Below, piece after piece: positions 2,414 to 61,545 of a stretch of DNA of 64,000 bases (position 1 is its first letter; every line of letters begins with the position of its first letter). The DNA is from Kutzneria viridogrisea (GTDB lineage: Bacteria; Actinomycetota; Actinomycetes; Mycobacteriales; Pseudonocardiaceae), in the NCBI GenBank assembly GCA_014138725.1, contig JACJID010000004.1:186001-250000 (forward strand), given 5' to 3'. Position numbers and translations under genes: made by a program. Below the pieces are notes generated by a model. It was given only the letters and a program-made list of their open reading frames with translations, was not told the origin of the DNA and made no database searches.

Positions 2414-3214
2414 ATGACGGCGACGCAGGAGGCACCGCACTGCCTGGTGGAGCAGCGCGGGCACGTGCTGGTGGTGACGATGAACCGGCCGGGGGCGCGC
2501 AACGCGCTGTCCGGGCCGATGATGGCGATCATGCGTGAGGCCTGGGACCGGGTGGACGGCGAGGAGTCGATCCGGGCCTGCGTGCTGACCGGGGCGGGCG
2601 GCACGTTCTGCGCGGGCGCGGACCTGAAGGCCATGGCGCACAGCCATCCCGGGGACTCGTTCCGGCAGGGCGGCTGGGACCTGTCGGTGATCGAGCCGCT
2701 GCTCAAGGGGCGGCGGCTGAGCAAACCGCTGATCGCCGCGGTGGAGGGAGCGGCCATCGCGGGCGGTACGGAGATACTTCAGGCCACCGACATCCGGGTC
2801 GCCGGGCAGAGCGCGCGGTTCGGGGTGTCCGAGGCCCGCTGGGGGCTGTTCCCGCTCGGCGGGTCGGCGGTCCGCCTGCCGCGTCAGGTCCCGTACACCG
2901 TGGCGGCCGACCTGCTGCTGACCGGGCGGCACATCACCGCCGAGGAGGCGCTGCGGTTCGGGCTGATCGGCCACGTGGTGCCCGACGGGCAGGCCCTGGA
3001 CCGGGCGCTGGAGCTGGCCGAGCAGATCGCCGCGAACGGCCCCCTTGCCGTGCGGGCGATCCTGCGCACGATGCGGGAGACCGAGGGCATGCCGGAGAAC
3101 GAGGCGTTCCGGCTGGAGGCCGAGCTGGGCACGGCGGTGTTCCGCAGTGAGGACGCCAAGGAGGGACCGGCCGCGTTCGCACAGAAGCGCAAACCGGAGT
3201 TCCGCGGCCGGTGA
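2414..3214 (+). CDS. echA19: Enoyl-CoA hydratase EchA19
   Basis: Crotonase-fold protein of 266 residues, closely resembling mycobacterial EchA19 over its whole length. The oxyanion-hole segments are CAGAD (66-70) and [10 protein letters not shown] (111-120). The family's DSF, KGRRL and KPLIAAVEG stretches are present. It hydrates the unsaturated CoA thioester of the sterol side chain in beta-oxidation. ATG 2414 is chosen over the upstream ATG at 2378 because GGGAGG lies 5-6 nt before it and homologues begin here. It is divergent from fadD19 across a shared KstR site, the same arrangement as in Mycobacterium. The stop codon lies within a 12-bp tandem repeat. Confidence 0.92.
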
Positions 3215-3270
3215 CGCGGCCGGTGACGCGGCCGGTGACGCGGCCGGTGATGTGACCGGTGACGCGGCCC
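3204..3270. repeat. 12-bp GCGGCCGGTGAC tandem repeat at echA19 stop
   Basis: About five head-to-tail copies of GCGGCCGGTGAC, the last two degenerate. The first copy supplies the echA19 stop codon (TGA 3212-3214), and because each unit contains TGA, further in-phase stop codons follow. The array fills the short gap to the convergent DICT gene that ends at 3275. Confidence 0.85.
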
Positions 3271-39122: not shown

Positions 39123-39665
39123 ATGGGGGCTGTGTTCGACGGTGACCGCATCCGGTTCACCGATTACAAGATCGTCTGCGCCAGCGTGCACCCGTCCGGC
39201 GAGCTGTCCGCCTCGCGGATCAGGGACGCCGACTGGTCGCCGGGCACGATGCCCGAGATCCGCACGCACGAGGGCGAGACCCTGTTCCTGCCTGTCGCGC
39301 AGGCCGATCGGCTCCGCGACTTCTGCCAGGTCAACGGCATTCCGCAGGTGCGCCGCCCACCCGTGTGGCAGGACCTGCTGGAGCCGTACGTGGACACCGA
39401 TCACAACGAAGAGCACCGCTCTCGCGTGGCCGAGCGTCTGGTGCGAGCAGGCCTCGACTCCGCCGAGGTGGAGCGGATCCGCGCCCGGGTCGGCGGCATG
39501 ATGGTCGCCTTCAACGCCAAGGTCATGGACTGGGCCGGGCTGTACCACCACGACGTGCTGCTGGCCGCCAGCGGAGCCCTGGTCCCCGCCGCACACGTGA
39601 CAGCCCTGGGCGACCCGGTGGAGTTCTACTGGTGGACCATGCGCATCGCCGACCGAACCCCCTAA
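39123..39665 (+). CDS. Hypothetical protein, 180 residues
   Basis: Not recognised. The sequence is soluble and mixed alpha/beta: MGAVFDGDRIRFTDYK at the start, ADRLRDFCQVNGIPQVRRPPVWQDLLEPYVDTDH in the middle, and LYHHDVLLAAS and VEFYWWTMRIAD near the end. No signal peptide or transmembrane segment. Codon bias is normal for the window, supporting a real gene. The TAA stop is followed with no gap by the first unit of a 21-bp repeat array running in the same direction. Confidence 0.7.
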   Translation: MGAVFDGDRIRFTDYKIVCASVHPSGELSASRIRDADWSPGTMPEIRTHEGETLFLPVAQADRLRDFCQVNGIPQVRRPPVWQDLLEPYVDTDHNEEHRSRVAERLVRAGLDSAEVERIRARVGGMMVAFNAKVMDWAGLYHHDVLLAASGALVPAAHVTALGDPVEFYWWTMRIADRTP

Positions 39666-40290
39666 CCCGAGTCCCGCTCTACGGCGCACCAGTCCCGCCC
39701 TACCGCAGCCGAGTCCCGGTCTCAGGAGCGCGAGTCCCGCCCACAGGAGCGCGAGTCCCGGTCTGGGGAGCACCAGTCCCGCCCACTGGCGCACGAGTCC
39801 CGCGCTCGGGAACGCCAGCCTCGCACTGGGGAGCACGAGTCCCGGCCTGGGGCGCACGAGTCCCGCGCTGAGGAACGCGAGCCCGCCCACAGGAGCGCGA
39901 GTCCCGCGCTGCCACAGCCCAGTTCCGCCCACAGCAGCGCGAGTCCCGGTCTGGGGAGCGCGAGTCCCGCGCAGAGGGCCCGAGTCCCGCACTGGAGCGC
40001 ACCAGTCCCGCCCTGGGGAACGCCAGTCCCGTCCTGAAGGACCCGAGTCCCGGCCTGGGGAACGCAAGTCCCGCTCTACCGCAGCCCAGTCCCGCTCTGG
40101 GACGCACCAGTCCCGGCCTGGGGAACGCAAGTCCCGTCCGCAGAAGCGCGAGTCCCGGCCTGGGGAACGCCAGTCCCACACTGAGGAGCGCGTCCCGTCC
40201 ACAGGAGTGCGAGTCCCGGCCTGGGGCGCACCAGTCCCGCCCTGGCACACCCGAGTCCCGCCCTGGTCAGCGCGAACCCCGCGACCGGCA
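39666..40290 (+). repeat. 21-bp GAGTCCCG tandem repeat array 1 (about 30 units)
   Basis: Head-to-tail 21-bp units of form [G/C]AGTCCCG followed by 13 more variable bases (often CTCTGGGGAGCGC-like), with a few 20-bp units. The array begins directly after the TAA of the gene at 39123-39665 and runs to near the convergent desulfhydrase gene. Long open frames here are a by-product of the 21-bp (7-codon) period. Four loci of this family occur in the window. Confidence 0.92.
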
Positions 40291-40313
40291 GCAGGCTCCC
40301 AGCAGGCACCCGC

Positions 40314-41168
40314 TCAACCAGTGATCACCGCGACGACCCGCGTGCCCGGGGCGATCTCCCCACGCCCGGCCATGGCGTAGATCCCGTACAGCATCTTGGC
40401 CACGTAGACCAGGTCCAGCCGCACCCCGTGCCGTGCACCGAAGTCGGCGGCGAACTCCACCAGCTCCGGCTTGGTCCGGGCGTAGCCGCCGAAGTGGAAC
40501 TCGCACTGCACCGCCCAGTTGTCGCCGACCCGCCCGAACTCGGCGAGTTGCAGCCGGGCGACCTCACCGGCGAGGAACTGCCCGCCGCGCAGCGCCGAGA
40601 AGCCCAGCGCGCGCTGACCGGGCCGCAGCGCCCCGGCGATACCGGCGAGCGTCCCGCCGGTGCCGCACGCACAGCAGATCAGGTCGAAGTCCTGGTCGAT
40701 CTCGGCTGGCAGCTCGGCGGTCCCGCGCACGGCCAGCGCGTTGCTGCCGCCCTCGGGCAGCATGTAGGCGGGGCCGAACCGGGCGAGCAGGTCGGCCACC
40801 AGCCCGGGGTCGGTCTTGCGCCGGTAGGTCCGCCGGTCCAGGTAGGTCAGTGTCATGCCGTGCGCGGTGGCGCGGGCCAGCGACTCGTTGAGCGGCAGGT
40901 GCTGCTCGCCGCGGATCACGCCCACCGTGCGGAACCCGTAGTGGTGGCCCGCGGCGGCGGTGGCGCGGATGTGGTTGGAATAGGCGCCGCCGAAGGTCAG
41001 CAGCGCCGTGTGCCCCTGTTCGCGGGCGGCCGTCAGGTTGTGCTTGAGCTTGCGCCACTTGTTGCCGGTCAACTCGGGGTGGATCAGGTCGTCCCGCTTC
41101 AGGTGCAGGGTCACCCCCAGCCGCGCCAGGCGTTCGTCGTGCACCAGGTTCAGCGGCGAGTGCGGCAC
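40314..41168 (-). CDS. PLP-dependent ACC deaminase/D-cysteine desulfhydrase family enzyme
   Basis: 284 residues of the fold-type II PLP family. The lysine is in LTGNKWRKLKHN, followed by FGGAYSNHIRATAAAG, LPEGGSNALAVRG, and phosphate loop ACGTGGTLAGIAG. Members deaminate 1-aminocyclopropane-1-carboxylate or desulfhydrate D-cysteine; the sequence alone does not decide, and D-cysteine desulfhydrase is the commoner activity. Start GTG 41168. It is divergent from the aldo/keto reductase with a 17-bp gap. Confidence 0.85.
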   Translation of the reverse strand: MPHSPLNLVHDERLARLGVTLHLKRDDLIHPELTGNKWRKLKHNLTAAREQGHTALLTFGGAYSNHIRATAAAGHHYGFRTVGVIRGEQHLPLNESLARATAHGMTLTYLDRRTYRRKTDPGLVADLLARFGPAYMLPEGGSNALAVRGTAELPAEIDQDFDLICCACGTGGTLAGIAGALRPGQRALGFSALRGGQFLAGEVARLQLAEFGRVGDNWAVQCEFHFGGYARTKPELVEFAADFGARHGVRLDLVYVAKMLYGIYAMAGRGEIAPGTRVVAVITG

Positions 41169-41185
41169 GGGTGGAGTATGGCCCT

Positions 41186-42160
41186 ATGGAGTACACGAAT
41201 CTTGGCCGGACCGGGCTGCGTGTGTCCCGGCTGTGCCTGGGCACGATGAACTTCGGTCCGGTGACCGAGGAGCCCGAGTCGCACGCGATCATGGATCAGG
41301 CGCACCAGCACGGGATCAACTTCTTCGACACCGCGAACGTGTACGGGTGGGGCGAGAACCGGGGCCGCACCGAGCAGATCCTGGGCAACTGGTTCGCCAC
41401 CGGCGGCGGTCGCCGGGACAAGACGGTGCTGGCCACCAAGGTCTACGGCTCGATGGGCGAGGGCTGGCCCAACGAGGACAAGCTGTCCGCGCTGAACATC
41501 CGCCGGGCCTGCGAGGCGTCCCTGCGCAGGTTGCAGACCGACTACATCGACCTCTACCAGTTCCACCACGTGGACCGGGACACCCCGTGGGAGGAGATCT
41601 GGCAGGCGCTGGAGACCCTGGTGGCGCAGGGCAAGGTGCTCTACGTCGGGTCCTCCAACTTCGCGGGCTGGCACATCGCGCAGGCACAGGCCAAGGCCGC
41701 CGAGCGCAACTTCCTGGGCCTGGTCAGCGAGCAGTCCATCTACAACCTGGCCCGCCGCGAGGTGGAGCTGGAGGTGCTGCCCGCCTGCGAGCACTACGGG
41801 CTGGGCGTGATCCCGTGGAGCCCGCTGTACTCCGGGCTGCTCGGCGGGGTGCTGCGCAAGCAGCGCGAGGGCAAGCGCCGCTACGACGATCGGGTCAAGG
41901 CCCGCATCGAGGAGCTGCGCGAGCCACTGGGTGCCTACGAGGACTTCTGCGAGGAACTGGGCGAGGAGCCCGGTGACGTGGGTCTGGCCTGGCTGCTGCA
42001 CCAGCGGGCGGTCACCGCGCCGATCGTCGGCCCGCGCAACGCCGAACAGCTCGACGGGGCCCTGCGTGCCCTGGAGATCACCCTGTCCCAGGAGCACCTG
42101 GACCGGCTGGACAAGATCTTCCCCGGCTACCGGACCGCGCCCGAGCACTACGCCTGGTGA
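41186..42160 (+). CDS. Aldo/keto reductase
   Basis: (beta/alpha)8 NADPH-dependent oxidoreductase of 324 residues: MEYTNLGRTGLRVSRLCLGTMNFG, DTANVYGWGENRGRTEQILG with catalytic Asp/Tyr, and GPRNAEQLDGAL cofactor loop. It resembles the YajO/voltage-gated-channel beta-subunit branch. Substrate unknown. ATG 41186. A strong 15-bp-stem terminator follows. Confidence 0.9.
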   Translation: MEYTNLGRTGLRVSRLCLGTMNFGPVTEEPESHAIMDQAHQHGINFFDTANVYGWGENRGRTEQILGNWFATGGGRRDKTVLATKVYGSMGEGWPNEDKLSALNIRRACEASLRRLQTDYIDLYQFHHVDRDTPWEEIWQALETLVAQGKVLYVGSSNFAGWHIAQAQAKAAERNFLGLVSEQSIYNLARREVELEVLPACEHYGLGVIPWSPLYSGLLGGVLRKQREGKRRYDDRVKARIEELREPLGAYEDFCEELGEEPGDVGLAWLLHQRAVTAPIVGPRNAEQLDGALRALEITLSQEHLDRLDKIFPGYRTAPEHYAW

Positions 42161-42168
42161 GGCGGCGG

Positions 42169-42209
42169 GCCGCGGCGGTGCCCCTCCCCGGAGCGGGCAC
42201 CGCCGCGGC
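42169..42209 (+). terminator. Hairpin terminator after aldo/keto reductase
   Basis: 15-bp perfect stem GCCGCGGCGGTGCCC and complement, 11-nt loop, starting 8 bp after the stop. Confidence 0.85.
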
Positions 42210-42275
42210 ACCAGCCTAACGTGTTGTGTCCAGTGTGGACAGTGCAATTCCGGGTACATTCGAACCGGGAGACAA

Positions 42276-42292
42276 TTTCGCCGAACGCGAAC
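42276..42292. promoter_or_regulatory. ClgR-like box upstream of clpP
   Basis: TTTCGCCGAACGCGAAC holds the palindrome TTCGC-N5-GCGAA, resembling the ClgR binding site of actinobacterial clp promoters. It lies about 220 bp before the clpP start in a 304-bp gap with no other gene. Binding is inferred. Confidence 0.55.
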
Positions 42293-42513
42293 AGTTATCC
42301 ACGCGAAATCGAAATGCGCCGGTCCGACACGCCGGACCCGTCCGGAATCGATCTCCATCTCCGCAGGTCAGCGCCTGCCCCACCCGGTGGCGTCCTGCTG
42401 TCGGCGAACACGGCCGTGCCGCCGGTCTCCCGACCACCCCGCTCGGCTAGAGTGAGCGCAGGAATCAGCAGTGCGAGCTGTACCAGGCTGAAACTAGAGA
42501 AGGCGGACAGAGA

Positions 42514-43113
42514 GTGGAACACCACATCGCGATGCGCTCCGGCGGCGCCGGGATGAACCTCACCGACTCGGTGTACGACCGGCTGCTCCGCGACCGCATC
42601 ATCGTGCTCGGCTCCGAGGTCGACGACGACGTGGCCAACCGCATCGTCGCCCAGCTGCTGCTGCTGACGGCGGAGAACCCCGAAGAGGACATCAAGCTCT
42701 ACATCAACTCCCCCGGTGGTTCGGTCACCGCGGGCTTCGCGATCTACGACACCATGCAGTTCGTGCAGCCCGACGTGCAGACCTTCGCGATGGGCCTGGC
42801 CGCGTCCATGGGGCAGTTCCTGCTGTCCTCCGGTGCCCCCGGCAAGCGGTTCGCGCTGCCCTACGCCCGGATCATGATGCACCAGCCCTCCGGTGGGGTC
42901 GGCGGCACCGCCTCGGACATCAAGATCCGCGCCGAGGTGTACGCGCTGTGGAAGAAGGAGATCGCCGAGCTCACCGCCCGGCAGACCGGCCGCAGCGTGG
43001 AGGAGGTCACCCGGGACGGTGACCGCGACCGCTGGTTCACCGCGCGCGACGCGCTGGAGTACGGCTTCATCGACCACGTCGTGGAGCGCTCCTCGGAGAC
43101 CCCGAACGGCTGA
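42514..43113 (+). CDS. clpP: ATP-dependent Clp protease proteolytic subunit (orphan ClpP)
   Basis: Serine peptidase S14 of 199 residues: [45 protein letters not shown], nucleophile Ser in [14 protein letters not shown], His in MMHQPSGG. It forms tetradecameric chambers with a Clp ATPase. No second clpP, clpX or popR gene is adjacent, so it is a stand-alone paralogue. GTG 42514 is the likely start, with ATG 42532 an alternative. A ClgR-like box upstream suggests stress control. Confidence 0.93.
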
Positions 43114-43181
43114 TCCACTCGCACGGCGGCGGCGCTACCCGGTCCGGGTGGCGCCGCCGCTGTCGTCGGGGGCTCGTCCGC

Positions 43182-44114
43182 TCAGCGGGACTCGCGCTCC
43201 ACAGAGCGGGACTCGCGCTCCACAGAGCGGGACTCGCGCAGCCAGGCGGGGTCGATGCCCTGGGGTGGGCCGCCCGCGCCGAGGTCGGCGGGGGTGTAGC
43301 CGGTGGGATAGCCCGGGTAGCTGGGGTTGCGCGGTTCGTTGGCCATGCGCGACGCGCGGCGTGGCGGCAGCAGGCGCACGAACTCGGAACGGGCGCGCAG
43401 CCCGGCCCTGGCCAGGGCGGTGACCCGCGCCGGTTCCGGGGTGAAGCCGAACGCGGTGATCATCCGCGGTTCGAGCAGTGCGGTCACCGCCCGGCGCACG
43501 GCGGGCCGCAGCGGGGCCGGGTACCAGGAGCACATCAGGTCCAGGGTGTAGATCCCGATGCGCCGGTTGTCCTCGGTGAACCGGAACGTGTCCCGCTCGA
43601 AGTCCCGCGCCCACCGCCGGAACTCCGCGTACCCGCTCGGGATGTCCTGGATGCCCATCCGCCTGCCCACCTCGCGGTAGAAGTGGAACGCGGCGAGCCG
43701 CTCGTGCTCGGTCAGCCGCCGCCAGCCGTAGCGGTGCAGCCAGCCGATCGGCTCGTAGATGAACGTGGACAGCACGTAGAGCATGTCCTCGTTGCTGATC
43801 CGGTACTGCCCGTGCATGCGGTTGACCACCCGCAGGCTCTCCTTGCCGCGCGGGGAGTCGTAGCCGTGCTCGGCCAGCTCCGCCATGAGCAGGGCCGTGT
43901 CGTCGTAGCGCTTCTGCGGCCTGTGCTCGAACTCCCCGGTGGCCACGAGCAGCGCGGAGATGCTGGGCACGCAGTAGGTCTTGTACAGCGCGAACTCCAG
44001 GGCGCGCTGGTAGTCCCAGGGGAACTCGAAGCCCGCGGAGATCCGGTAGATCTCCTGGTGGTCGCGTTCGGGGTCCAGCGACAGGATCCGGCGCAGCCAG
44101 TGCCAGCGGTCCAC
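43182..44114 (-). CDS. DUF2236/MpaB-family oxygenase with repeat-encoded C-terminal tail
   Basis: 310 residues of the oxygenase-MpaB/DUF2236 family, which includes the latex-clearing rubber oxygenase and binds b-type heme: DRWHWLRRILSLDPERDHQEIYRISAGFEFPWD, FIYEPIGWLHRYGWRRLTEHERLAAF, DTFRFTEDNRRIG. The last 17 residues, RESRSVERESRSVERESR-like, are translated from three copies of the 21-bp repeat, and the TGA follows directly. The start is GTG 44114, 3 bp after the F420 oxidoreductase stop, so the two form an operon. Substrate unknown. Confidence 0.85.
   Translation of the reverse strand: MDRWHWLRRILSLDPERDHQEIYRISAGFEFPWDYQRALEFALYKTYCVPSISALLVATGEFEHRPQKRYDDTALLMAELAEHGYDSPRGKESLRVVNRMHGQYRISNEDMLYVLSTFIYEPIGWLHRYGWRRLTEHERLAAFHFYREVGRRMGIQDIPSGYAEFRRWARDFERDTFRFTEDNRRIGIYTLDLMCSWYPAPLRPAVRRAVTALLEPRMITAFGFTPEPARVTALARAGLRARSEFVRLLPPRRASRMANEPRNPSYPGYPTGYTPADLGAGGPPQGIDPAWLRESRSVERESRSVERESR
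43185..43239 (-). repeat. 21-bp repeat locus 2 (3 units, inside MpaB-family CDS)
   Basis: Three near-identical units, with cores GCGGGACTCGCG at 43185, 43206 and 43227 on the plus strand (exact 21-bp spacing). In the sense of the overlapping minus-strand gene they read GAGTCCCGC and encode its C-terminal tail. Confidence 0.92.
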
Positions 44115-44117
44115 GGC

Positions 44118-45146
44118 TCAGCTCAGCCAGTCGCGCAGCTGCCGCACGTCGCCGATCGGGTCGGCGCCCACCGGGTTGACGTTGAGCATGGTGACCCCGG
44201 CCGCCCGGTACGCCTCGACGCGCTCCTTGACGTACCCTGCGGGGCCGATCAGCGTGCTCAGCTCGAGGAACTCGGCGGGCACCGCGGCGGCGGCCTCCTC
44301 CTTGCGCCCTTCCAGGTACAGGTCCTGGATCTTTTCCGCCTCGGCCTCGTAGCCGTAGCGGCGCATCAGGTCGTTGTAGAAGTTGCGGCCGCGTGCGCCC
44401 ATGCCGCCGACGTAGAGCGCCACCACGGGCCGGGCGTACTCGCGCAGCGCGGTGACGTCCTCACCGATGGCCAGCAGCCCACCGGCCACCACGTCCAACG
44501 GCCCCAGCTCCGGTGACCGCTTGGCGGCGCCCGCGCGCAGGGCCGCACCCCACACCTGGTCGGCCTTCTCCGGCAGGAACAGGGTGGGCAGCCAGCCGTC
44601 GGCGATCTCCGCGGTCAGCCGCACGTTCTTGTCGCCCAGCGAGGCCAGGTAGATCGGGATCGAGGGGCGGACCGGGCGGCTGAGGATCTTCAGCGGCTTG
44701 CCGAGGCCGGTGCCCTGCCCCTGCGGGAGCGGCACCGAGTAGATGCCCTCGTGCTCGATCACCTCGCGGCGCCAGATGCGGCGGCACAGGTCGACCACCT
44801 CGCGGGTGCGGCCCAGCGGCCGATCGTAGGGCACGCCGTGCCAGCCCTCGACGACCTGCGGCCCCGAGGCGCCCAGGCCGAGCAGCGCACGGCCCTCCGA
44901 CACCGCGTCCAGGCCCGCCGCCGTCTGCGCGATCAGCGCCGGGGTGCGGCTGTAGATCGGCAGGATGCCCGGGCCGATCAGCATGCGCTCGGTGCGCGCC
45001 GCCAGGTAGCCCAGCAGGGTCGGCGCGTCGAAGCCGTACGCCTCGGCCACCCAGACCGCGTCCAGCCCGGCCCGTTCCAGCACGACGACCTGTTCGATCA
45101 GTTCCCGGGGGTTCCCCGCGTACTGCAGGGGCACGCTCAGCCGCAT
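44118..45146 (-). CDS. F420-dependent LLM-class oxidoreductase
   Basis: TIM-barrel protein of 342 residues: MRLSVPLQYAGNPRELIEQVV, LLGLGASGPQVVEGWHGVPYDRPLGRTREVVDL, PIYLASLGDKNVRLTAEIADGWLPTLF. It resembles the Rv3520c-like protein at 7.6 kb, down to the C-terminal catalytic-domain motifs. It is predicted to use F420. ATG 45146 has CGAGGAGG upstream; ATG/GTG starts further 5' would enter the AT-rich operator region. It forms an operon with the DUF2236 gene. Confidence 0.85.
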   Translation of the reverse strand: MRLSVPLQYAGNPRELIEQVVVLERAGLDAVWVAEAYGFDAPTLLGYLAARTERMLIGPGILPIYSRTPALIAQTAAGLDAVSEGRALLGLGASGPQVVEGWHGVPYDRPLGRTREVVDLCRRIWRREVIEHEGIYSVPLPQGQGTGLGKPLKILSRPVRPSIPIYLASLGDKNVRLTAEIADGWLPTLFLPEKADQVWGAALRAGAAKRSPELGPLDVVAGGLLAIGEDVTALREYARPVVALYVGGMGARGRNFYNDLMRRYGYEAEAEKIQDLYLEGRKEEAAAAVPAEFLELSTLIGPAGYVKERVEAYRAAGVTMLNVNPVGADPIGDVRQLRDWLS

Positions 45147-45168
45147 CGCCGGCCTCCTCGTCTGGTTC

Positions 45169-45187
45169 ACATATCATATATCTTATT
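45169..45187. promoter_or_regulatory. AT-rich palindromic operator candidate, LLM/GntR divergent promoter
   Basis: ACATATCATATATCTTATT is a sharply AT-rich island in otherwise GC-rich DNA, with overlapping ATAT/ATGATAT symmetry. It lies 23 bp before the LLM start and 36 bp before the GntR start. A likely FCD-type GntR binding site and promoter. Confidence 0.5.
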
Positions 45188-45222
45188 CCCGGCCGGACAG
45201 ACAGTACTGAGGAGGAGGGACC

Positions 45223-45888
45223 GTGGCCAGCCCGCTGCTACCCAGACCACAGCTGTCCGACGAGGTGGCCGCCCACCTGCGGGAATCCATCATGTCCGGC
45301 GAGCTGCGGCCCCGCGAGTTCGTCCGGCTGGACGCGGTGGCCGCCGAGCTGGGGGTCAGCGTCACGCCCGTGCGCGAGGCCCTGCTGGCGCTGCGGGCCG
45401 AGGGCATGGTCGAGCTGCAACCGAGGCGCGGCTTCGTGGTGACCCCGCTGACCAGGCAGGACGTTCAGGACCTGTTCAGCCTGCAAGCCCACCTCGCGTC
45501 CCAGCTGATGGCGCGGGCCGCCGAGCGGATCACCGAGCAGCAACTGCTGGACCTGGAGCGGATGGCCGCCGACCTGGCCGCCGCCGCGCACGTGGGCAGC
45601 CAGTCGCTGGGCGCTCAGGAGTACGAGTTCCACCGGGCCATCAACCTGATCGCCCAGTCGCGCAAGCTGGCCCGGTTCATGGAGCTGGCCAGCCGGTATG
45701 CGCCCGGTCGGCTCTACACCGCCGACGAGGACTGGCGGCGGCAGGTGGTCGCCGACCACTCGGCGATCCTCACCGCGTTGCGCGAGCACGACGCCGAGGC
45801 CGCCAGGGCCGCGATCCTGCGCCACGCCGCCGACGGCGAACAGCGCCTGCTGCGGCACCTGGACTCGGTCGGCATCTGGGAGTCCTGA
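45223..45888 (+). CDS. GntR-family (FadR/FCD-type) regulator
   Basis: 221 residues. Winged helix at residues 9-65 (LSDEVAAHLRESIMSGELRPREFVRLDAVAAELGVSVTPVREALLAL), then an FCD ligand-binding domain with metal-ligand-type residues (EYEFHRAINLIAQ, DHSAILTALREHDAEAAR). GTG 45223 has GGAGGAGGG upstream. Its position divergent from the LLM/DUF2236 operon points to those genes as targets. Confidence 0.9.
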   Translation: MASPLLPRPQLSDEVAAHLRESIMSGELRPREFVRLDAVAAELGVSVTPVREALLALRAEGMVELQPRRGFVVTPLTRQDVQDLFSLQAHLASQLMARAAERITEQQLLDLERMAADLAAAAHVGSQSLGAQEYEFHRAINLIAQSRKLARFMELASRYAPGRLYTADEDWRRQVVADHSAILTALREHDAEAARAAILRHAADGEQRLLRHLDSVGIWES

Positions 45889-46074
45889 GCCGAACCGTCC
45901 GTCCACTATGGACGTACATGCTCGGTCACCGCGCGGCAGCACACCGTCACGCCGGAGCCGGCGTTGTGTCGACAGGTTGACGAGCAGGTCACGAAATGCC
46001 CCAACAGAACGAATTGCTGGGTGCCATTGTGCCTACTCTGCTGCACTCGACTCGCCGACTCGAAGGAGACTGGC

Positions 46075-46908
46075 ATGACCACGACCCTCGGCTTCGTCGC
46101 TCACCAGGACGACTGCATCCTGTTCATGAACCCCGACCTGTGGGGGGACATCTTCGCCGGCCGTTCGCTGTGGACCGTGTACCTGACCGCGGGTGAGGTC
46201 CCGTACAGAACGGGGAGAACCTACGGCGGCATGGACTACGCGGACATGCGCATCCAGGGTGCGCGCGCCGCCTACGCCGAAGCCGCCGGCGTACCCAACA
46301 GCTGGAGCTTCGAGGCGAAGACCTGGAACGGACACCAGGTCGCCACCAACCAGCTCGACGGCACCGACATCCACCTCGTGTTCTGCTTCATCCACGCCGC
46401 GGCCGCGCCGGAGGACCCGACCGGGGACCTGTACCGGATGCTGCACGACCCGTCCTTCGTCGCCAACCCGATCGACGGCCGGCCCGGCTACACGCGGTCC
46501 TCCTTCGTGGGCATGCTCAGCGCGATGATCAACGACATCGGGCCGGACTACATCAGGACCCAGTCCACGCGGGGCCACACGGACCTCGCGCCGAACCGGG
46601 ACCACGTGGACCACACCTCCGGCGCGATCCTGGCCGCCATGGCCAACCTCGACGCCTCCGGCCACACCCGGGTGCGCCGCGACGAGTACCTGGGCTACGT
46701 CATCCGCGACGACTCGACCTACCCCGAGGAGCCCTCCGGGCTGGCCGACTTCAAGACCACGATGTGGACCACCTACGCCCCGCACGACCCGGAGGTCTCG
46801 GTGAACACCTGGCTCCCGGTGATGGGCAAGCAGTACCGGAGGCAGGGCGGCAGCTACCTGCCCGGCGACCCGTGGACCGCGCCGGTGGACTTCACCAGCC
46901 CGGTCTGA
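46075..46908 (+). CDS. PIG-L-family zinc deacetylase
   Basis: 277 residues. The usual AHPDDE metal motif is present as AHQDDCILF (residues 8-16), with Gln for Pro and Cys for Glu, and the second motif HVDH is near residue 180. The family removes acetyl groups from N-acetylglucosamine-type sugars (mycothiol and glycopeptide biosynthesis). The variant motif leaves activity uncertain. ATG 46075 has AAGGAG upstream. No signal peptide. The downstream 730 bp is the repeat array belonging to the convergent XRE gene. Confidence 0.85.
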   Translation: MTTTLGFVAHQDDCILFMNPDLWGDIFAGRSLWTVYLTAGEVPYRTGRTYGGMDYADMRIQGARAAYAEAAGVPNSWSFEAKTWNGHQVATNQLDGTDIHLVFCFIHAAAAPEDPTGDLYRMLHDPSFVANPIDGRPGYTRSSFVGMLSAMINDIGPDYIRTQSTRGHTDLAPNRDHVDHTSGAILAAMANLDASGHTRVRRDEYLGYVIRDDSTYPEEPSGLADFKTTMWTTYAPHDPEVSVNTWLPVMGKQYRRQGGSYLPGDPWTAPVDFTSPV

Positions 46909-46956
46909 TCAACGTCGAACGGCAGCGCGCGGTCGGCCGGGACCGCGCGCCGCACG

Positions 46957-47679
46957 GCGGGACTGGCGCGCGTGGGAGCGGGACTCACGCGCTGGTGGGC
47001 GGGACTCGCGCACCAGCGGGCGGGACTCGTGCTCCGCTGGCCGGGACTCGCCCGCCAACTCGTGCACCTCAGACCGGGACTCGCGCGCCGCAAAGCGGGA
47101 CTCGGCTGCGGCAGAGCGGGACTCACGCACCCCCAGAGCGGGACCCGGCTGCCGCAGAGCGGGACTCACGCACTCCAGACCGGAACACGCGCACCACTCA
47201 GCGGGATTCGCGCACCGGCGGGCGGGACTCGCGCCCCTCTCAGCGGGACCCACGCACCAGCAGCCGGGACTCACGCTCCGGTGGCCGGGCCTCACGCGCC
47301 AGCGGGCGGAACGCGCCCACCCCTCAGCGAGACTTGCGCCCCCAGCGCGGGATTCGCGCACCGCAGAGCAGGACTCGCGCACCGCAAAGAGCGGGACTCC
47401 CCCACCGGCAGCCGGGACTCACACACCGGTGGGCGGGTCTCGCACACTCCAGACCGGGACACGCGCACCACTCAGCGGGACTCGCCCACCGGCGGGCGGG
47501 ACTCACGCGTCTCAGAGCGGGACTCGCGCTCCCCAAACCGGGACTCGCGCGCCGCAAAGCGGGACTCGGCTGCGGCAGCCGGGACTCACCCACCAGCAGC
47601 CGGGCCTCACCCACCAGCAGCCGGATCTCACGCCCACCTCAGCGGATCTCGCCCACCTCGGAGCGGGACTCGCGGGTGG
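46957..47679 (-). repeat. 21-bp repeat array 3 (about 34 units)
   Basis: Tandem 21-bp units with core GCGGGACTC on the plus strand (GAGTCCCGC in the sense of the minus-strand XRE gene), followed by 12 variable bases in a few recurring versions (for example GCGCACCAGCGG, GCGCGCCGCAAA, GGCTGCGGCAGA). Some units are 20, 22 or 23 bp and one is 33 bp. The last two units overlap the 3' end of the XRE gene. The array fills the 730-bp gap up to the PIG-L stop. No gene is supported inside it. Confidence 0.93.
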
Positions 47680-48505
47680 GGTGTTCGGTGGCCTGCCAGC
47701 TGGCGAGCAGGCGCAGGCGTTCCTCGGCAGGTGAGCCTGCCGGTGCCGCGTAGGTGATCAGCACCTGGTCGCTGTCCCCCCGCAGGGCCATGGTCACGTA
47801 GCTCAGTTCCAGCTCGCCCACCAGCGGGTGGTTGATCCGCTTGGCGCCGTTGGTCTTCTGCTTGACGGCGTGCTGGGCCCACAGCGTGCGGAACTCCGGG
47901 GACTTCATGGACAGCTCGCCGATCAGCGCGGCCAGCTCGGGGTCCTCGGGGTAGTTGCCCGCGTCCAGTCGCAGGAGGGCCACGGCCTCGGCGGCCACGG
48001 TGGGCCAGTCCGGGTAGAACTCGCGGGCCCCCGGCCACAGGAAGGTGTGCCGGGCGGAGTTGCGGAACTCCGGGGACTGCGTGCTGTAGCCGTACAGCGC
48101 GTCTGCCAGGGCGTTCCAGGCCAGGATCTGCATGCGGCGGCCCAACACGAAGGCGGGCACCTGCTCCATCATGTCCATGGTGCGCTGCACGATCGGGCGC
48201 ACCCGCTGCTGCTGCGGGGCCGACCGGGACCGCTTGGCGGGCCGCACGAGGTTGCGCAGGTGCACCCGCTCGGTCTCGTCCAGGCGCAGGGCGCCCGCGA
48301 TGGCGTCCAGTACGGCGTCGGACACCGTGGGGCTGCGGCCCTGCTCCAGGCGCACGTAGTAGTCCACACTGACCCCGGCCAACTGGGCCAGTTCCTCGCG
48401 CCGCAGGCCGGGGACGCGCCGCCGCCCGAACGAGGGCAGGCCCACCTCGGCGGGCTGGATGCGGGCACGCCGTGAGCGCAGGAACTCGCCGATGTCTTGG
48501 GCCAC
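47639..48505 (-). CDS. XRE-family regulator with MmyB-like ligand-binding domain
   Basis: 288 residues. N-terminal HTH (EFLRSRRARIQPAEVG...RVPGLRREELAQLAGVSVDYYVRLEQGR), then an MmyB-like PAS-type domain (QILAWNALADALYGYS, HTFLWPGAREFYPDW). These regulators typically control a divergent oxidoreductase, as here with the SDR at 48610. The final RESRSEVGEIR residues are encoded by two repeat units of array 3. GTG 48505 is chosen; the open frame upstream crosses the promoter. Confidence 0.87.
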   Translation of the reverse strand: MAQDIGEFLRSRRARIQPAEVGLPSFGRRRVPGLRREELAQLAGVSVDYYVRLEQGRSPTVSDAVLDAIAGALRLDETERVHLRNLVRPAKRSRSAPQQQRVRPIVQRTMDMMEQVPAFVLGRRMQILAWNALADALYGYSTQSPEFRNSARHTFLWPGAREFYPDWPTVAAEAVALLRLDAGNYPEDPELAALIGELSMKSPEFRTLWAQHAVKQKTNGAKRINHPLVGELELSYVTMALRGDSDQVLITYAAPAGSPAEERLRLLASWQATEHPTRESRSEVGEIR

Positions 48506-48609
48506 GTCGACCAGTATCGCCGCAGCGGCCGCTCCCAACCTGGTACTGCCACACCCACGGTAGAACCGTGCCCTGGGTAGGGCCTGGCGCGGGCCGCAGG
48601 GTTGTCGCC

Positions 48610-49374
48610 ATGACCTCCTACGAGAACCTGACCGACCGCACCGCACTGATCACCGGCGCCGCCAGCGGCATGGGCGAGGCCATCGCCCGGCTGCTGGGCG
48701 CCTCCGGGGCGCGGGTGGCCCTGCTGTCCCGGCGGGCCGACCGGCTGACCACGCTGGCCGACAAGATCATCGCCGACGGGGGCCGTGCGCTCGCGGTGCC
48801 CGCGGACCTGACCGACTCCGCCTCGGTGGACGCCGCCGCGGCACGGGTGCGTGCCGAGTTCGGGCCGGTGGACCTGGTGGTGAACAACGCGGGCGTGATG
48901 CTGCCCAACCCGATCACCGATGGCCGCGAGGACCAGTGGCAGCGCATGATCGACACCAACCTGGTCGGGGCGCTGCGCGTGATCAGGACGTTCGTGCCCG
49001 ACCTGGTGGAGTCCGCCCGCGCGGGCCGCACCGCCGACCTGGTCGACATCTCCTCGATCGGGGCGCACATGGTCTTCCCCAACTACGCCGTGTACAGCGC
49101 GACCAAGGCGGCGCTGACCCACCTGTCCGCCTCGCTGCGCAGCGAACTGGGGCCGCAGGACGTGCGGGTGACCAACATCGAGCCGGGCGCGACCCAGACC
49201 GAGTTGACCGACCACCTCGACAGCGCCGAGATGGTCGCGCAGCTCGACGCCCTGTTCACGACCACCGGCCTGCTCAGCGCCGAGGAGATCGCCGACGTGG
49301 TCGGCTACGTGACCAGCCGCCCCCGGCACGTCAACCTGCGGCAGATCGTGGTGCTGCCGACCAGGCAGGCGTGA
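48610..49374 (+). CDS. SDR-family oxidoreductase
   Basis: 254 residues of the classical SDR type: TGAASGMGEA, NNAGVM, catalytic Ser in DISSIGAHMV, YSATK, and ETGATQTEL-like IEPGATQTEL. Probably NADP-dependent given the SRR pair after the second strand. ATG 48610. Divergent from the XRE/MmyB regulator, its likely controller. Its stop is 4 bp from the convergent SARP gene stop. Confidence 0.9.
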   Translation: MTSYENLTDRTALITGAASGMGEAIARLLGASGARVALLSRRADRLTTLADKIIADGGRALAVPADLTDSASVDAAAARVRAEFGPVDLVVNNAGVMLPNPITDGREDQWQRMIDTNLVGALRVIRTFVPDLVESARAGRTADLVDISSIGAHMVFPNYAVYSATKAALTHLSASLRSELGPQDVRVTNIEPGATQTELTDHLDSAEMVAQLDALFTTTGLLSAEEIADVVGYVTSRPRHVNLRQIVVLPTRQA

Positions 49375-49378
49375 ACCC

Positions 49379-52216
49379 TCAGCCGTCGAGGTCGGCCAGG
49401 CGCTGGGCGACCTCCTCGGCCTCCGGGGCGCCCATGCCGGTGAGGATGTGCAGCGCCCTGGTCAGCGACTGCCGTGCCTGGTCCGTCCGCCCGCAGCCGA
49501 GCAGGGCCACTCCCCTGCTGTGCAGGGCACGGGCCAGGCCGAACCGGTCGTCGATCGACTCTCGCACCTCGATGGCCTGGTCGTAGTGGTCGACGGCCTC
49601 CTCGAACCGCTCCATGGCCAGGTGGACCTGGCCGAGCACGGTCAGTGCGGAGCCCACGCCGTGCACGTAGCCGACCTCGCGCCAGGCGGTGAGCGAGCGG
49701 TGGCCGTAGTCCAGTGCCTCCTCGTGGCGCCCCATCGCCAGGTACGCCGAGGCGGTGCCTTGTAGGGCCCAGGCCGCGCCCCAGTGGTTGCCGATCCGCT
49801 CGAACAGCTCGGCGGCCCGGCGCAGGCAGGGCATCGCCTCGTCGAACCGGCCCATGGCCACGTAGGTGTTGGCCAGCGCGTTGGTGGCGATGCCCTCCAT
49901 CCACCGGTCCTCGGTGTCCGGGTAGACCTCCAGCGCCAGCCGGTAGTGCGTCACCGCTTCCTCGTAGCGGCGCAGGTCGTTGTAGACCACACCCAGCGCC
50001 GCATGCCCGTTGGCGATGCCGGAGGTGCTGCCGTCCAGACCGGCCTGGTGCAGGGAGAGCTCCAGCATCTCCAGCCACAGGTCCCAGCGCTTGTTGTAGA
50101 CGTACCAGAAGCTGGACATCGTCTGCGGCAGCCGCCAGGCCACGCCGTGCTCGCCCAGCTGCGCGGCGCGGCGGATCGCGGAGACGATGTTGGCCTCCTC
50201 GGCGGCGAACCAGGCCCGGCACTGCGCGGGGTCGGCCGGGTCGGCGAAGGTCCAGTGCCGCGGCGGCGCGACGATGTCGTGCACCGCCTTCTGCGGGATC
50301 ATCACCCGGTCCGCCGAGTTGGCCGCGTGCAGGTACCACCAGGCCGACCGCCTGCCCGCCGCGTGCCTGGTCTCCTCGTCCTCCTCCTCGAAGGCGCGTT
50401 CCAGCGCGTACACCGCGAGCAGGTCGTGGAACTGGTAACGGCCGTCACCGCGCTCCTCCAGCAGGTGCGCCCGCACCAGCTCCTCGAGCAGCGCCTCGGT
50501 CTCCGGCCCGGTGACGTCGGCCAGCGCGCCCGCGGCGTGCCCGCTGATGTCCTCGCCCTCGTGCAGCCCCAGCAGCCGGAACATGCGGGCCGCCTGCGGG
50601 CTGAGCGCGTCGTAGGACCAGGAGAAGACCGCGCGCACGTTGGAACTCACGTCGTCGCCGGTGTCCAGGGCGTCCAGCCGGAAGTGGGCGTCGCGCAGCT
50701 CGTCCACGAACTGGGCCAGCGGCAGGTTCGGGCTGCACCAGGCGCGGGCCCCGACGATGCTCAGCGCCAGCGGCAGGCCCGCGCACAGCTGGATCAGCTC
50801 CTCGAAGGCGGCCCGGTCCTCGGCGATCCGCTCGGGGTCGAGGTAGCCCGCGAGCAGCTCGGCGGAGTCCTGCGGGCCGAACAGCCCGAGGGTGAGCTGG
50901 CGCGCGTCCCCGGTGGCGGCCAGGCCGTCCAGCCGGTTGCGGCTGGTGACCAGCACCACGCAGCTCTGGTTCGCGGGCAGCAGCGGGTGCACCTGCTCGG
51001 TGGACACGGCGTTGTCCAGCACCAGCAGCAGCCTGCGGCCCGAGGCGATGGAGCGGAACAGGGCGGAGCGCTCGTCCAGGGCGGTCGGGATCTTCTCCGA
51101 GGACACGCCGAACGCGGTCAGCAGGGTGTACAGCGCGTCGTGGGTGCTCACCGGGTCACCGGCCACGTCGAACCCGCGCAGGTTCAGGTACAGCTGGCCG
51201 TCCGGGAACCGGTCGCGCACCCGGTGCGACCAGTGCACCGCCAGCGAGGTCTTGCCGATGCCCGCGGTGCCCTCGATGGTGGTGATCACCACCGTGCCCC
51301 CGGTGGTCGGTGCCGTCAGCGGGGGCAGCAGGCCGTTGAGCCGGGTCAGCTCCTCGCCCCGCCCGGTGAAGCGGCGGGTGTCGTGCGGCAGCTGGGAGGG
51401 CACTGCCCTGGTCGGATCGGCCGCGGCGGGCTTGTCCCGCGCCAGCAGCGTGTCGTGCAGTTCGCGCAGCACCGGTCCCGGCTGCACACCCAACCGCTCG
51501 GACAGCACCTGCTCCCCGGCCTGGTAGACCTCCACGGCGCTGTCGCGGCGTCCCTGGGCGAGCAGGGCGCGGATGAGCAGCGCCCTGGCCGACTCCCGCA
51601 GCGGGTGGTCCGCCAGCACCGCGGCCAGCTCCTCCACCAGCTCCGCGTGCCGCCCCATGCGCAGCAGCACCTCGCCGCGCTCCTCCACCACGTCCAGGCG
51701 CAGCTCCGAGAGCCTGGCCCGCTCGACGTCGGCGAACGGTCCGGTGATCGTCCCCAGCGGGGTGCCCACGCACAGCCCCAGCGCCTGGTCCAGCGCCCGC
51801 AGGGCACCGGCGGCCTCCCCGGCGGCCAGCAGGGTCCGCGCCTGCTGGCGGGCCGCCGCGAACCGCTCGGCGTCCACCGACTGCTCGGGCAGTCGCAGGC
51901 AGTAGCCCGAGCCCGCGCTGACGAGCACCTGGTAGGGCGCGCCCTCGCGGCGGTCCGGCTCCAGCACGCGGCGCAGACCGGCCACGTAGGTGTGCACGTT
52001 GCCCGCGGCCGTGGCCGGTGGCGTGGCGCCCCACAGGGCGTCGATCAGCTCGGCGCGGGAGATCACCTGGTTGGCGTTGGTGGCCAGCACGGCGAGCAGC
52101 GCCTGCTGGCGGGGCGGCCCCACCGGCACCAGCCGCTCACCGATCCAGGCTCGCACGGGTCCCAGCAGCCCGATCCGAACGGGCGTCACGGCATCGAGCA
52201 CTGCGGGCACTGTCAT
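49379..52216 (-). CDS. AfsR/SARP-type regulator (BTAD, NB-ARC, TPR)
   Basis: 945 residues. DNA-binding winged helix (about 12-95: RIGLLGPVRAWIGERLVPVGPPRQQALLAVLA), bacterial transcriptional activation domain (about 100-250), NB-ARC ATPase with Walker A GTAGIGKTS near residue 318, and C-terminal TPR repeats from about 690 (HAALGVVYNDLRRYEEAVTHYRLALE and similar). Large SARPs activate antibiotic clusters in response to nucleotide and partner-protein signals. No biosynthetic cluster adjoins it here except the tryptophan-catabolic operon downstream in the sense direction of neither gene. Its targets may lie elsewhere. Confidence 0.92.
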   Translation of the reverse strand: MTVPAVLDAVTPVRIGLLGPVRAWIGERLVPVGPPRQQALLAVLATNANQVISRAELIDALWGATPPATAAGNVHTYVAGLRRVLEPDRREGAPYQVLVSAGSGYCLRLPEQSVDAERFAAARQQARTLLAAGEAAGALRALDQALGLCVGTPLGTITGPFADVERARLSELRLDVVEERGEVLLRMGRHAELVEELAAVLADHPLRESARALLIRALLAQGRRDSAVEVYQAGEQVLSERLGVQPGPVLRELHDTLLARDKPAAADPTRAVPSQLPHDTRRFTGRGEELTRLNGLLPPLTAPTTGGTVVITTIEGTAGIGKTSLAVHWSHRVRDRFPDGQLYLNLRGFDVAGDPVSTHDALYTLLTAFGVSSEKIPTALDERSALFRSIASGRRLLLVLDNAVSTEQVHPLLPANQSCVVLVTSRNRLDGLAATGDARQLTLGLFGPQDSAELLAGYLDPERIAEDRAAFEELIQLCAGLPLALSIVGARAWCSPNLPLAQFVDELRDAHFRLDALDTGDDVSSNVRAVFSWSYDALSPQAARMFRLLGLHEGEDISGHAAGALADVTGPETEALLEELVRAHLLEERGDGRYQFHDLLAVYALERAFEEEDEETRHAAGRRSAWWYLHAANSADRVMIPQKAVHDIVAPPRHWTFADPADPAQCRAWFAAEEANIVSAIRRAAQLGEHGVAWRLPQTMSSFWYVYNKRWDLWLEMLELSLHQAGLDGSTSGIANGHAALGVVYNDLRRYEEAVTHYRLALEVYPDTEDRWMEGIATNALANTYVAMGRFDEAMPCLRRAAELFERIGNHWGAAWALQGTASAYLAMGRHEEALDYGHRSLTAWREVGYVHGVGSALTVLGQVHLAMERFEEAVDHYDQAIEVRESIDDRFGLARALHSRGVALLGCGRTDQARQSLTRALHILTGMGAPEAEEVAQRLADLDG

Positions 52217-52322
52217 CGGCGCTGCTCCGAATGTGAGAGCGATCCCTCGGCTCGGTCAACGCTATACCACCCGAGTGGGGGAACAGCAGCCCTGGATTTT
52301 CGATCGGTCGGCGGCTGGCCAA

Positions 52323-52378
52323 GCGGGACTCGCGTGCTGGAGAGCGGGACTCGCGCACCCCAGAGCGGGACTCGCGGG
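52323..52378 (-). repeat. 21-bp repeat locus 4 (3 units) after formamidase stop
   Basis: Cores GCGGGACTC at 52323, 52344 and 52365 on the plus strand, exact 21-bp spacing. In the sense of the minus-strand hydrolase gene the array begins immediately after its TGA (52379-52381) as GACCCGCGAGTCCCGC. Confidence 0.92.
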
Positions 52379-53098
52379 TCAGGTCAGTTCGCGGACCACG
52401 AGCTCGCTCACCGGGTCGGCCGGGTCGGTGAACTGGAAGTGGTCCACACCCGGTGGCACCACGAGGCGCACCGACTCCCCCGCCGCCTCGGCGAACCGCT
52501 TCGCGAGCTCGACCGGCACGTGCACGTCGGCGTCACCGTGCAGCACCACCACCGGCACGTCCAGTGGCAGCAACGCCATCGGGTCGGTCTCCGGCAGCCG
52601 CTCGGCCACCCGGGCTCCCAGCAACTCCGTCACGGCGTTATCGCTCAGGCCCAGCTCGTGCGCCCTGGCCAGGTCGCACAACGGGGCCAGCGCGAGGACC
52701 TTGGCCACCTGCGGGCGGCTGTCCCGGTGCCAGCGACTCGTCGGCGGCAGGCGGTGCCGCCCGCTGGCCCACAGCGCGAGGTGGCCGCCCGCCGAGTGGC
52801 CGACCAGCACCAGCGGCCGCCCGCCCAGCAGCTCGGGCAGTGCGTCCACGGCCTGGGCCACGTCGTCGAAGGTGCCCGGCCAGCCGCCCGCGCCGCGGAC
52901 TCGCCGGTACTCGACCGACGCCACCGGGATTCCTTGCGCGGCAAGGTGTTCCGCGAACGGCACCAGGTAGGACCGGTCGTAGGTCTGCCGCCAGTAGCCG
53001 CCGTGCACCAGCACCGCGGCGGGCCGCTGCTCGCTGCCGGGCGGCTCCCACAGGTCGATCACCTGGTCGGCGTGCTCCCCGTAGCGGACGGTCCTCAC
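52379..53098 (-). CDS. Alpha/beta hydrolase, probable kynurenine formamidase
   Basis: 239 residues. The HGGYWR oxyanion motif, GHSAGG nucleophile, DADVHVPVE acid strand and VDHFQF histidine match the alpha/beta-hydrolase kynurenine formamidases. It would hydrolyse N-formylkynurenine to kynurenine. GTG 53098 overlaps the kynureninase stop (GTGA), so it is last in the TDO-kynureninase-formamidase operon, and that context supports the assignment. The 21-bp repeats start directly at its stop. Confidence 0.85.
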   Translation of the reverse strand: MRTVRYGEHADQVIDLWEPPGSEQRPAAVLVHGGYWRQTYDRSYLVPFAEHLAAQGIPVASVEYRRVRGAGGWPGTFDDVAQAVDALPELLGGRPLVLVGHSAGGHLALWASGRHRLPPTSRWHRDSRPQVAKVLALAPLCDLARAHELGLSDNAVTELLGARVAERLPETDPMALLPLDVPVVVLHGDADVHVPVELAKRFAEAAGESVRLVVPPGVDHFQFTDPADPVSELVVRELT

Positions 53099-60465: not shown

Positions 60466-61545
60466 TCACGGCGGACCGGGCTCGGCGATCGCCCGCGCAC
60501 GGGCCTTGTACTCGAACCCCAACGGCGTGATCCACCGCTGGATCCCGTCCGCACCCCGCGTGAACCGGTACCGACCGATCGTCTTCAGGCAGTGGTGCAC
60601 ATCGCAGAACGGTCCGAGATTGCGCTCATCCGTCTCACCACCCGAGGCAAAACCCCGCGCGTGGTCGATCTGACATTCCGCGACCGGCCGCAGACACCCC
60701 GGCGCCTGACACACCCGGTCCCGCACCATCACAAAATCCCGCAACGCCTTCGGCGGCCGATATCGTTTACGTCCGACCCCGATCGGCATTCCCACCTCAT
60801 CGGTGAGCACCTTCCGCCAGTCCCCTTGGCCAGCGATTTCACGAGCCAAGTTCGCGTCAACGTAGCCAACCCCGGCGATGTACCCAGGGTCGGCGGTCAA
60901 CCCCAGCAATGTCTGCACCAAAACGGTGACATCGGTCCACACCGTCACCGGCCGACCTGAGCCCAACATCCGATCGACGAACACATCGGCCTGCTTCTCG
61001 CCCCACGACCGGTCGTCATCCAGGGTCCCGGCATCGGCGTTGATCTGGTCGAAGATCGAACGAGCCTGCACGGCGTCCAGGTACGCGGTCAACTCCGCCA
61101 TGCCATCAGGCTTGGACACGTAGCGCACCTCGGACCGCCGCACGGCCTTGACGTGCCGACTCTCCTCCCCCAGCGGATCAACCAGGCACACCAGCCGCCC
61201 GACCTCGACCGTCAACTCCTTCGAGTTCAACTCCGCGGCCCCAACCAACCGGGCATCCACGCGGCGGGCCTTCGCCGAGTCGAGGTTCTCGGTCAGCTTC
61301 CGAACGACCTCGAACCGATCCAGGTCCAGCAACCCGTCCCGCATCAACCCCGCCAGCACCGGCAGCCGATCCAGCGCCGCCGCCTGTTCCTGGAGCCTCC
61401 TCGCCCTCCCCAACGGCATGCGGAGCAACAGGGCGATCTCGTGCGGATCATCAAGTTCGGCGGCGCAGCAGAGCAGATCGAATTCAGCGGACGCGAGGCG
61501 CTTCCACACCTCCACCATCCGCTCCGCAATCTCCCGCTGCCCCAT
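60466..61545 (-). CDS. DUF222/HNH endonuclease (13E12 repeat-like)
   Basis: 359 residues: DUF222 helical region (LPVLAGLMRDGLLDLDRFEVVRKLTENLD) and C-terminal HNH with CQAPGCLRPVAECQIDHA...TDERNLGPFCDVHH. This family is highly repeated in actinobacteria and related to mycobacterial 13E12. The HNH residues look intact. The gene appears somewhat less GC-biased in third positions than its neighbours, suggesting transfer. ATG 61545. Confidence 0.88.
   Translation of the reverse strand: MGQREIAERMVEVWKRLASAEFDLLCCAAELDDPHEIALLLRMPLGRARRLQEQAAALDRLPVLAGLMRDGLLDLDRFEVVRKLTENLDSAKARRVDARLVGAAELNSKELTVEVGRLVCLVDPLGEESRHVKAVRRSEVRYVSKPDGMAELTAYLDAVQARSIFDQINADAGTLDDDRSWGEKQADVFVDRMLGSGRPVTVWTDVTVLVQTLLGLTADPGYIAGVGYVDANLAREIAGQGDWRKVLTDEVGMPIGVGRKRYRPPKALRDFVMVRDRVCQAPGCLRPVAECQIDHARGFASGGETDERNLGPFCDVHHCLKTIGRYRFTRGADGIQRWITPLGFEYKARARAIAEPGPP

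Follow-up and report, generated by a model that had tools for sequence, protein, structure and literature searches.

Four repeat arrays and their adjoining genes

Within the 64,000-nucleotide stretch of Kutzneria viridogrisea DNA analyzed here (the window), four arrays share a 21-bp tandem unit built around the octamer GAGTCCCG. The genes beside them were called with our own codon-usage script and not taken from a curated annotation. The arrays and genes are as follows.

Gene, 39123-39665, plus strand: upstream of array 1 and in sense with it; from our own gene caller and its translation
Array 1, 39668-40268, plus strand: 601 bp, about 29 units of 21 bp; octamer GAGTCCCG, also CAGTCCCG
Gene, 40314-41168, minus strand: convergent, beyond array 1
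Array 2, 43186-43235, minus strand: 3 cores, wholly within the coding end of the gene at 43182-44114
Gene, 43182-44114, minus strand: C-terminus extended by array 2
Array 3, 46957-47679, minus strand: 723 bp, about 34 units; sets in within the final codons of the gene that ends at 47639 and continues past the stop
Gene, 47639-48505, minus strand: last codons supplied by array 3; start uncertain, with an alternative at 48646
Array 4, 52324-52373, minus strand: 3 cores, 3' of the gene at 52379-53098
Gene, 52379-53098, minus strand: upstream of array 4 and in sense with it

The octamer occurred 40 times in the window, compared with 6.1 ± 2.4 times in shuffled sequence, and 40 of the 40 copies lay inside the four arrays, which bears out the first-pass annotation of these places as repeat arrays, far above chance. 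Its observation that the cores run in the direction of the adjoining gene was likewise confirmed (4 of 4 arrays). It had also placed every onset at or within the last codons or 0-3 nt past the stop, and the positions found differ slightly from this. The first core of array 1 lies 3 nt past the stop and that of array 4 lies 5 nt past it; array 3 sets in about 30 nt ahead of the stop at 47639 and gives its gene the tail ...TRESRSEVGEIR; and array 2 is entirely coding, adding the tail ...RESRSVERESRSVERESR to its gene, whose stop comes after the array. Such arrays lengthen proteins (the ESRSVER tail), a warning for annotation. Convergent gene pairs host three of the four arrays, so that these three are also antisense to the 3' end of a second gene. 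A 12-bp tandem repeat of a different kind (CGCGGCCGGTGA, 5.6 copies) occupies 3203-3269, and Rfam at the gathering score returned 0 matches in the window and four 20-kb loci.

We then compared the ends of orthologous genes. For the gene carrying array 2, orthologues were found in five congeners at 66-68% identity, and the array was absent at all five of the ends examined: each protein ends in ...LRR plus zero or one residue, while in K. viridogrisea the frame runs from the same ...LRR point into the array. One of these orthologues, in the genome designated G003, has a near-match, GCGAGTCCGC, about 70 nt beyond its stop, which is not the octamer. The element was also absent at the four orthologous ends examined for the array 4 gene (G003, G004, G005, and G006; G001 and G002 were not included). 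Since the orthologous ends lack arrays, arrays 2 and 4 were either gained in the K. viridogrisea lineage or lost in the others. Neighboring gene pairs shared between genomes numbered 1 for G005 and G002, 21 for G005 and K. viridogrisea, and 3 for G002 and K. viridogrisea; one was informative, with an element in G005 and unrelated sequence in the K. viridogrisea gap.

Spread across genomes and placement relative to stop codons

Across the whole K. viridogrisea genome (G000; 10,249,642 bp in 11 contigs), there were 1071 pairs of exact GAGTCCCG at array spacing and 0 pairs of the reversed motif. We also counted GCGAGTCCCGC in 390 Pseudonocardiaceae genomes, using the reversed form as a control. 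Within the genus, six of the seven genomes were enriched: G000 (724 copies vs. 17 reversed), G005 (297 vs. 36), G004 (165 vs. 35), G002 (160 vs. 16), G003 (96 vs. 24) and, weakly, G001 (64 vs. 27), with no enrichment in G006 (7 vs. 11). Outside the genus, high counts were found in Herbihabitans rhizosphaerae (G218; 266 vs. 14), G263 (96 vs. 26), G260 (76 vs. 17), and G325 (69 vs. 8); a few other family genomes were moderately raised (e.g., G309, 46 vs. 14), and most were near the control. Spaced octamer pairs were scarce in the congeners, with 11 in G005, 5 in G001 (4 of them runs of a heptamer), 3 in G002, 2 in G003, and none in G004 or G006.

Arrays of three units were present in 24 of the 390 family genomes, compared with 4 for the reversed control, although two of the 24 (G001 and G086) were heptamer runs. 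When 298 genomes of the order were scanned for GAGTYCCG arrays, 9 of the 54 Pseudonocardiaceae and 3 of the 244 others contained them, against 0 and 3 for the control. In this draw, octamer arrays are limited to the Pseudonocardiaceae, with background outside the family. Since the octamer served as the search key, its conservation between genera is partly a matter of ascertainment, and a GAGTCCCG-type core cannot be called the sole core in use; an Amycolatopsis array (L073) mixes several cores. Among 80 loci listed from at least 86 matching stretches, 52 carried a run of the heptamer (GAGTCCC)n. Such runs occur in Xanthomonas, Lysobacterales, Craterilacuibacter, and others (L041, L046, L049, L117, and further loci) and are apparently a separate simple repeat, which we set aside. 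Of 17 other loci examined, five (L045, L048, L072, L082, and L090) have an array that begins no more than 2 nt ahead of a sense stop or 9 nt past it, and 12 have none so placed. Six stretches of viral contigs also matched the repeat scan. RAST repeat-region counts per Kutzneria genome have been published, with 3 for K. viridogrisea, and section 5 of that source does not describe the regions (PMC10232511).

To quantify placement, we analyzed 1.26 Mb of G000 (C1:1-800,000, C1:1,200,001-1,600,000, and the window), defining a cluster as two exact octamers or one GCGAGTCCCGC and dropping other single octamers. Of the 47 clusters obtained, 43 were intergenic and 4 were classed as lying within genes. 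A sense gene lay upstream of 32 of the 43 intergenic clusters, and the other 11 had none. A cluster was scored as near a stop when its start lay no more than 75 nt ahead of a sense stop or 30 nt past it. The counts were compared with 400 draws in which place and orientation were randomized within the gaps concerned, gap and cluster length being kept. Near-stop starts numbered 20 of 43 (16 after the stop, 4 before), while random placement gave 9.3 ± 1.6 and at most 14; this null places clusters evenly and never before a stop, while the observed count includes clusters that begin as much as 75 nt ahead of the stop. The excess was larger in G005, at 43 of 59 against 17.8 ± 2.9 (highest 28). In two small samples the random maximum equaled the observed count: Herbihabitans, with 6 of 9 against 2.7 ± 1.3 (maximum 6), and G002, whose name we infer to be K. 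chonburiensis, with 5 of 8 against 1.2 ± 0.9 (maximum 5).

Placement in G005 was also narrow, the distance from core to sense stop being 2-10 nt in 36 of 47 cases and most often 5 nt. Convergent gaps, 7.9 kb in total, contained 36 of its cores; tandem gaps (33.1 kb) contained 22, divergent gaps (21.6 kb) 4, and genes (708.5 kb) 9. The second G005 set, of 376 kb, had been selected for the listed cores in it. The tandem-gap cores were split into 11 sense and 11 antisense, as is expected of palindromes. In G000, octamers in tandem gaps were mostly in sense in C1:1-0.8 Mb (94 sense, 9 antisense) and mostly antisense in C1:1.2-1.6 Mb (6 sense, 11 antisense), and 19 octamers lay in divergent gaps.

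Taken together, the bias toward gene 3' ends in sense orientation is real but is not a rule, and it is looser in G000. The earlier statement that the repeat always begins at a gene's 3' end in sense has to be withdrawn, given the 32 and 20 of 43 clusters above. The bias that it proposed survives as an excess over random placement in G000 and G005, qualified by the 11 exceptions and by the antisense majority in the C1:1.2-1.6 Mb tandem gaps. The comparison with related genomes supports it: the 3'-end sense bias is clear in G005 and also appears in the second congener and in Herbihabitans, as small samples.

Palindromic relatives, the conserved octamer, and rival explanations

In two sampled congeners, the core forms the outer arm of a near-palindrome of 61-107 bp. 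The 28 such elements (26 in G005 and 2 in G002) had a mean folding energy of -54.7 kcal/mol, and their arms were more alike within elements than between them (0.72 vs. 0.63; 0 of 5000 permutations). The commonest core-to-core distance was 63 bp, or 3 × 21. Among the cases listed, facing core pairs at 49-52 bp made up 12 of 13 in Herbihabitans, where two A units (units holding the octamer) often face two inverted A units, and 3 were found in G215; among those listed in the G005 and G002 samples, seven facing pairs were 1.0-3.9 kb apart, a spacing at which an autonomous relative with the same ends might lie. The step between cores was exactly 21 bp in 161 of the 174 G000 steps of 18-33 bp, and 22 bp in 13 of 14 G218 steps. 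Judged by eye, the inner part of the palindrome resembles a second, 22-bp repeat family of G000 (module B), and the 21-bp unit seems, by a match likewise judged by eye, to be a half-arm of the palindrome that was amplified. Another palindromic intergenic repeat, with arms GAAGGTGCCGTT and AACGGCACCTTC or similar, was seen in G000 in the C1:1,329,800 (L202) and C1:42,400 (L158) regions.

We next asked which part of the unit is kept constant. Over the whole span of eight arrays chosen by the analyst, octamer positions 2-8 matched the consensus in 95.7% of cases and the spacer in 74.9%; since the units of an array are related and were treated as independent, the p value of 2.5e-50 is only indicative. 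The corresponding figures were 98% and 74% in array 1, and 92% (core) and 75% (spacer) in array 3. The higher conservation of the octamer suggests sequence-specific recognition. The best match to the data would be a putative factor that recognizes it on DNA, where each unit spans two helical turns.

These observations bear on whether the repeat is a neutral minisatellite, produced by slippage anywhere and surviving only where it does no harm, so that tiny convergent gaps would leave it hugging stop codons with no recognition and no function. Convergent gaps without a core are nearly abutting in G005 (median 2 nt), so part of the fit to two stops comes from packing; the arrays also lengthen proteins without obvious need, and G000 has its exceptions in position and orientation. 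We nevertheless think this explanation unlikely. It is opposed by the much better conservation of the octamer, by the interspersed palindromic form in relatives, and by the near-stop excess relative to random placement within the gaps; moreover, even where G005 tandem gaps are about 100-290 nt long, the element mostly still lies 4-7 nt behind the stop.

A second possibility is a function at the RNA level: the sense array would be an element of the 3' untranslated region, working through Rho loading, ribosome stalling, or control of decay. The sense bias and stop proximity would suit such a role, and Escherichia coli REPs within 15 nt of the stop have been reported to stall ribosomes, in a study cited in PMC12306157. 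When the 601-nt sense RNA of array 1 was folded, it folded worse than 20 of 20 shuffles (z +4.3), and its complement worse than 19 of 20 (z +2.0). The weak structure of the sense RNA is what a Rho site should have. An excess of C over G is typical of Rho sites. Of the 16 G000 arrays measured, only 6 showed it and 10 had more G than C in sense, and Rho loading found no support on this count. Covarying unit positions showed no consistent pairing, 11 of 43 clusters have no sense gene upstream, and the folded palindromes of relatives have no structure in common with the unfolded arrays of G000. RNA structure is not what the arrays conserve. The small GCG-AGUCC-CGC hairpin put forward earlier finds no support in these data as the working part of the core, and an RNA element as a whole appears distinctly improbable.

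The third explanation concerns a companion gene. In C1:1-500,000 of G000, eight composites (L157, L168, L171, L172, L173, L176, L177, and L179) consist of A units and a partly palindromic stretch of about 115 bp, with 22-bp B arrays in seven of the eight; their best alignments to one another are at 69-80%. Downstream of each, in the same orientation, lies a DUF222/HNH paralogue (one of these genes is in two pieces), and we take these DUF222/HNH genes to belong to the 13E12 family. All eight close DUF222 paralogues in the G000 sample (78-100% identity) have 5-23 cores within 1.5 kb upstream. A Herbihabitans DUF222 gene (G218 C1:380,380-382,027; L236-L255) has a similar layout, preceded by a palindromic stretch and a four-unit A array right behind the stop of the upstream gene. 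No array lies upstream of the other five DUF222 loci of the G000 sample and window, two of which have a single GAGTCCC upstream, or of five in the G005 sample. A distant DUF222/HNH relative at 60559-61428 of the window (minus strand; 29% identity) has no array upstream.

The repeats could accordingly be parts of DUF222/HNH mobile elements and the free arrays their remnants, but the eight genes are copies of one element, only one of six comparable Herbihabitans genes has an array beside it, and G260 has 0 DUF222 matches, yet 76 cores against 17 in the control, so DUF222/HNH is unlikely as a general source and we regard this explanation as distinctly improbable. Despite the strong local association, DUF222/HNH was also rejected as a general mover, the repeat not accompanying the gene throughout. 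The composites look like a mobile element that took up the modules, or one of their carriers.

A proposed modular gene-end repeat family compared with known systems

On balance, and with guarded confidence, we favor the view that the Pseudonocardiaceae have a dispersed family of modular 3'-end repeats, similar to REPs and MITEs, and that the arrays arose by satellite-like expansion of one of its modules. The family would be built of 21-22 bp modules, of which module A holds the octamer GAGTYCCG. Its usual form in the sampled congeners is a palindrome with A as the outer arm; one end usually lies a few nucleotides past a stop codon, and the density is highest between convergent genes. In G000, module A, and elsewhere also the 22-bp module B, would have grown into tandem runs, with slippage or unequal recombination as the probable mechanism. 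Tandem growth of a half-arm would yield arrays that run in one direction, that frequently set in at a gene end or inside it, and that are able to enter the coding part.

The octamer would then be the recognition site of a putative protein, most likely of the copying or insertion machinery, and the copies behind stop codons would be targeted there or selected. The palindrome may serve the host as a U-less hairpin terminator or a two-way gene-end boundary and be kept for that reason, by analogy with Streptomyces clavuligerus, for which it is reported that hairpin ends without a U tract may act as a gene-end boundary (PMC8269248). The long arrays would probably be by-products with at most a residual role. 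A more specific proposal, which we hold only tentatively, is that a putative Pseudonocardiaceae protein, in a system free of RAYT, reads GAGTYCCG at a spacing of two helical turns (21-22 bp) and places or maintains modules directly behind stops; between convergent genes these would take the form of palindromes, and some genomes would also have them as long one-directional arrays acting as gene-end boundaries.

Recognition is open to direct testing through the octamer, the almost constant step of 21-22 bp, and the narrow range of distances to the stop. The passage from interspersed palindromes to satellites can be studied, as a natural experiment, by comparing genomes that have only palindromes with genomes that have arrays. 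The earlier idea of a mobile repeat that targets stop codons comes close to our favored reading: the family is dispersed, biased in placement, and absent at the orthologous ends examined. The part of it that found no support is the mover, sought as RAYT, and the flanks of the palindromes, read by eye, gave no clear target-site duplication, and no clean empty site was aligned.

The first-pass annotation knew of no description of such an element. This was too sweeping, since REP elements are known near 3' ends (PMC3733652), although the literature searched held no description of this repeat family, its 21-22 bp modules, or its arrays. Like the GTAG and CGTC superfamilies of REP/BIME as described in PMC3733652, the family has a high copy number, palindromes, and a habitat in convergent or co-directional gaps near 3' ends, sometimes reaching into coding ends; this habitat was found in G005. 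That source also shows, for two species, that REPs between convergent genes mostly lie within 20 bp of both 3' ends. The differences lie in the size of the palindromes, 61-107 bp here and 20-40 bp in REPs (PMC3733652), and in the 21-22 bp modules and one-directional tandem arrays, those of the window not being palindromic. The tags are not in excess at the feet either: GTAG lay within 10 nt of either foot in 1 of 28 palindromes (expected 1.9), and CGTC in 1 of 28 (expected 5.2). A scan of the seven genus genomes for RAYT (PF01797) gave 0 matches in G000 and five other members, and one partial match in G003 (33 profile positions, E 3.1e-4). RAYT mobilization was rejected on the lack of a match in G000, and since neither the REP tag nor RAYT was found there, we do not file the family as REP.

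The other known systems resemble it in part. As in MITEs, the elements are short, multicopy, and apparently noncoding, and inverted arms are present in all 28 elements of G005 and G002; unlike MITEs, they show no target duplication by eye, no autonomous partner was found in the samples, and they lie strikingly close to stop codons. Minisatellites (VNTRs) share the head-to-tail arrays of diverged units but not the single octamer conserved far beyond its spacer, the hundreds of places, or the palindromic form in relatives. Very stable hairpins close behind the stop without a U tract, as in the congener palindromes (only 1 of the 28 has a T-rich foot), recall the U-less, "I-shaped" terminators of GC-rich bacteria described in PMC8269248; here, however, a conserved multicopy sequence takes the place of independent hairpins, and the window array RNA has no excess structure. 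The DUF222/HNH genes are alike in that eight of them in G000 are preceded by repeat-holding composites, and unlike in that the repeat also occurs free of them and in a genome without a DUF222 match. Overall, the gene-end habitat is REP-like, and the manner of working is perhaps REP-like as well. The known REP superfamilies are defined by their tag and, for one, by RAYT transposases; a gene-end multicopy family with neither feature in G000 suggests that other machinery can build REP-like repeats.
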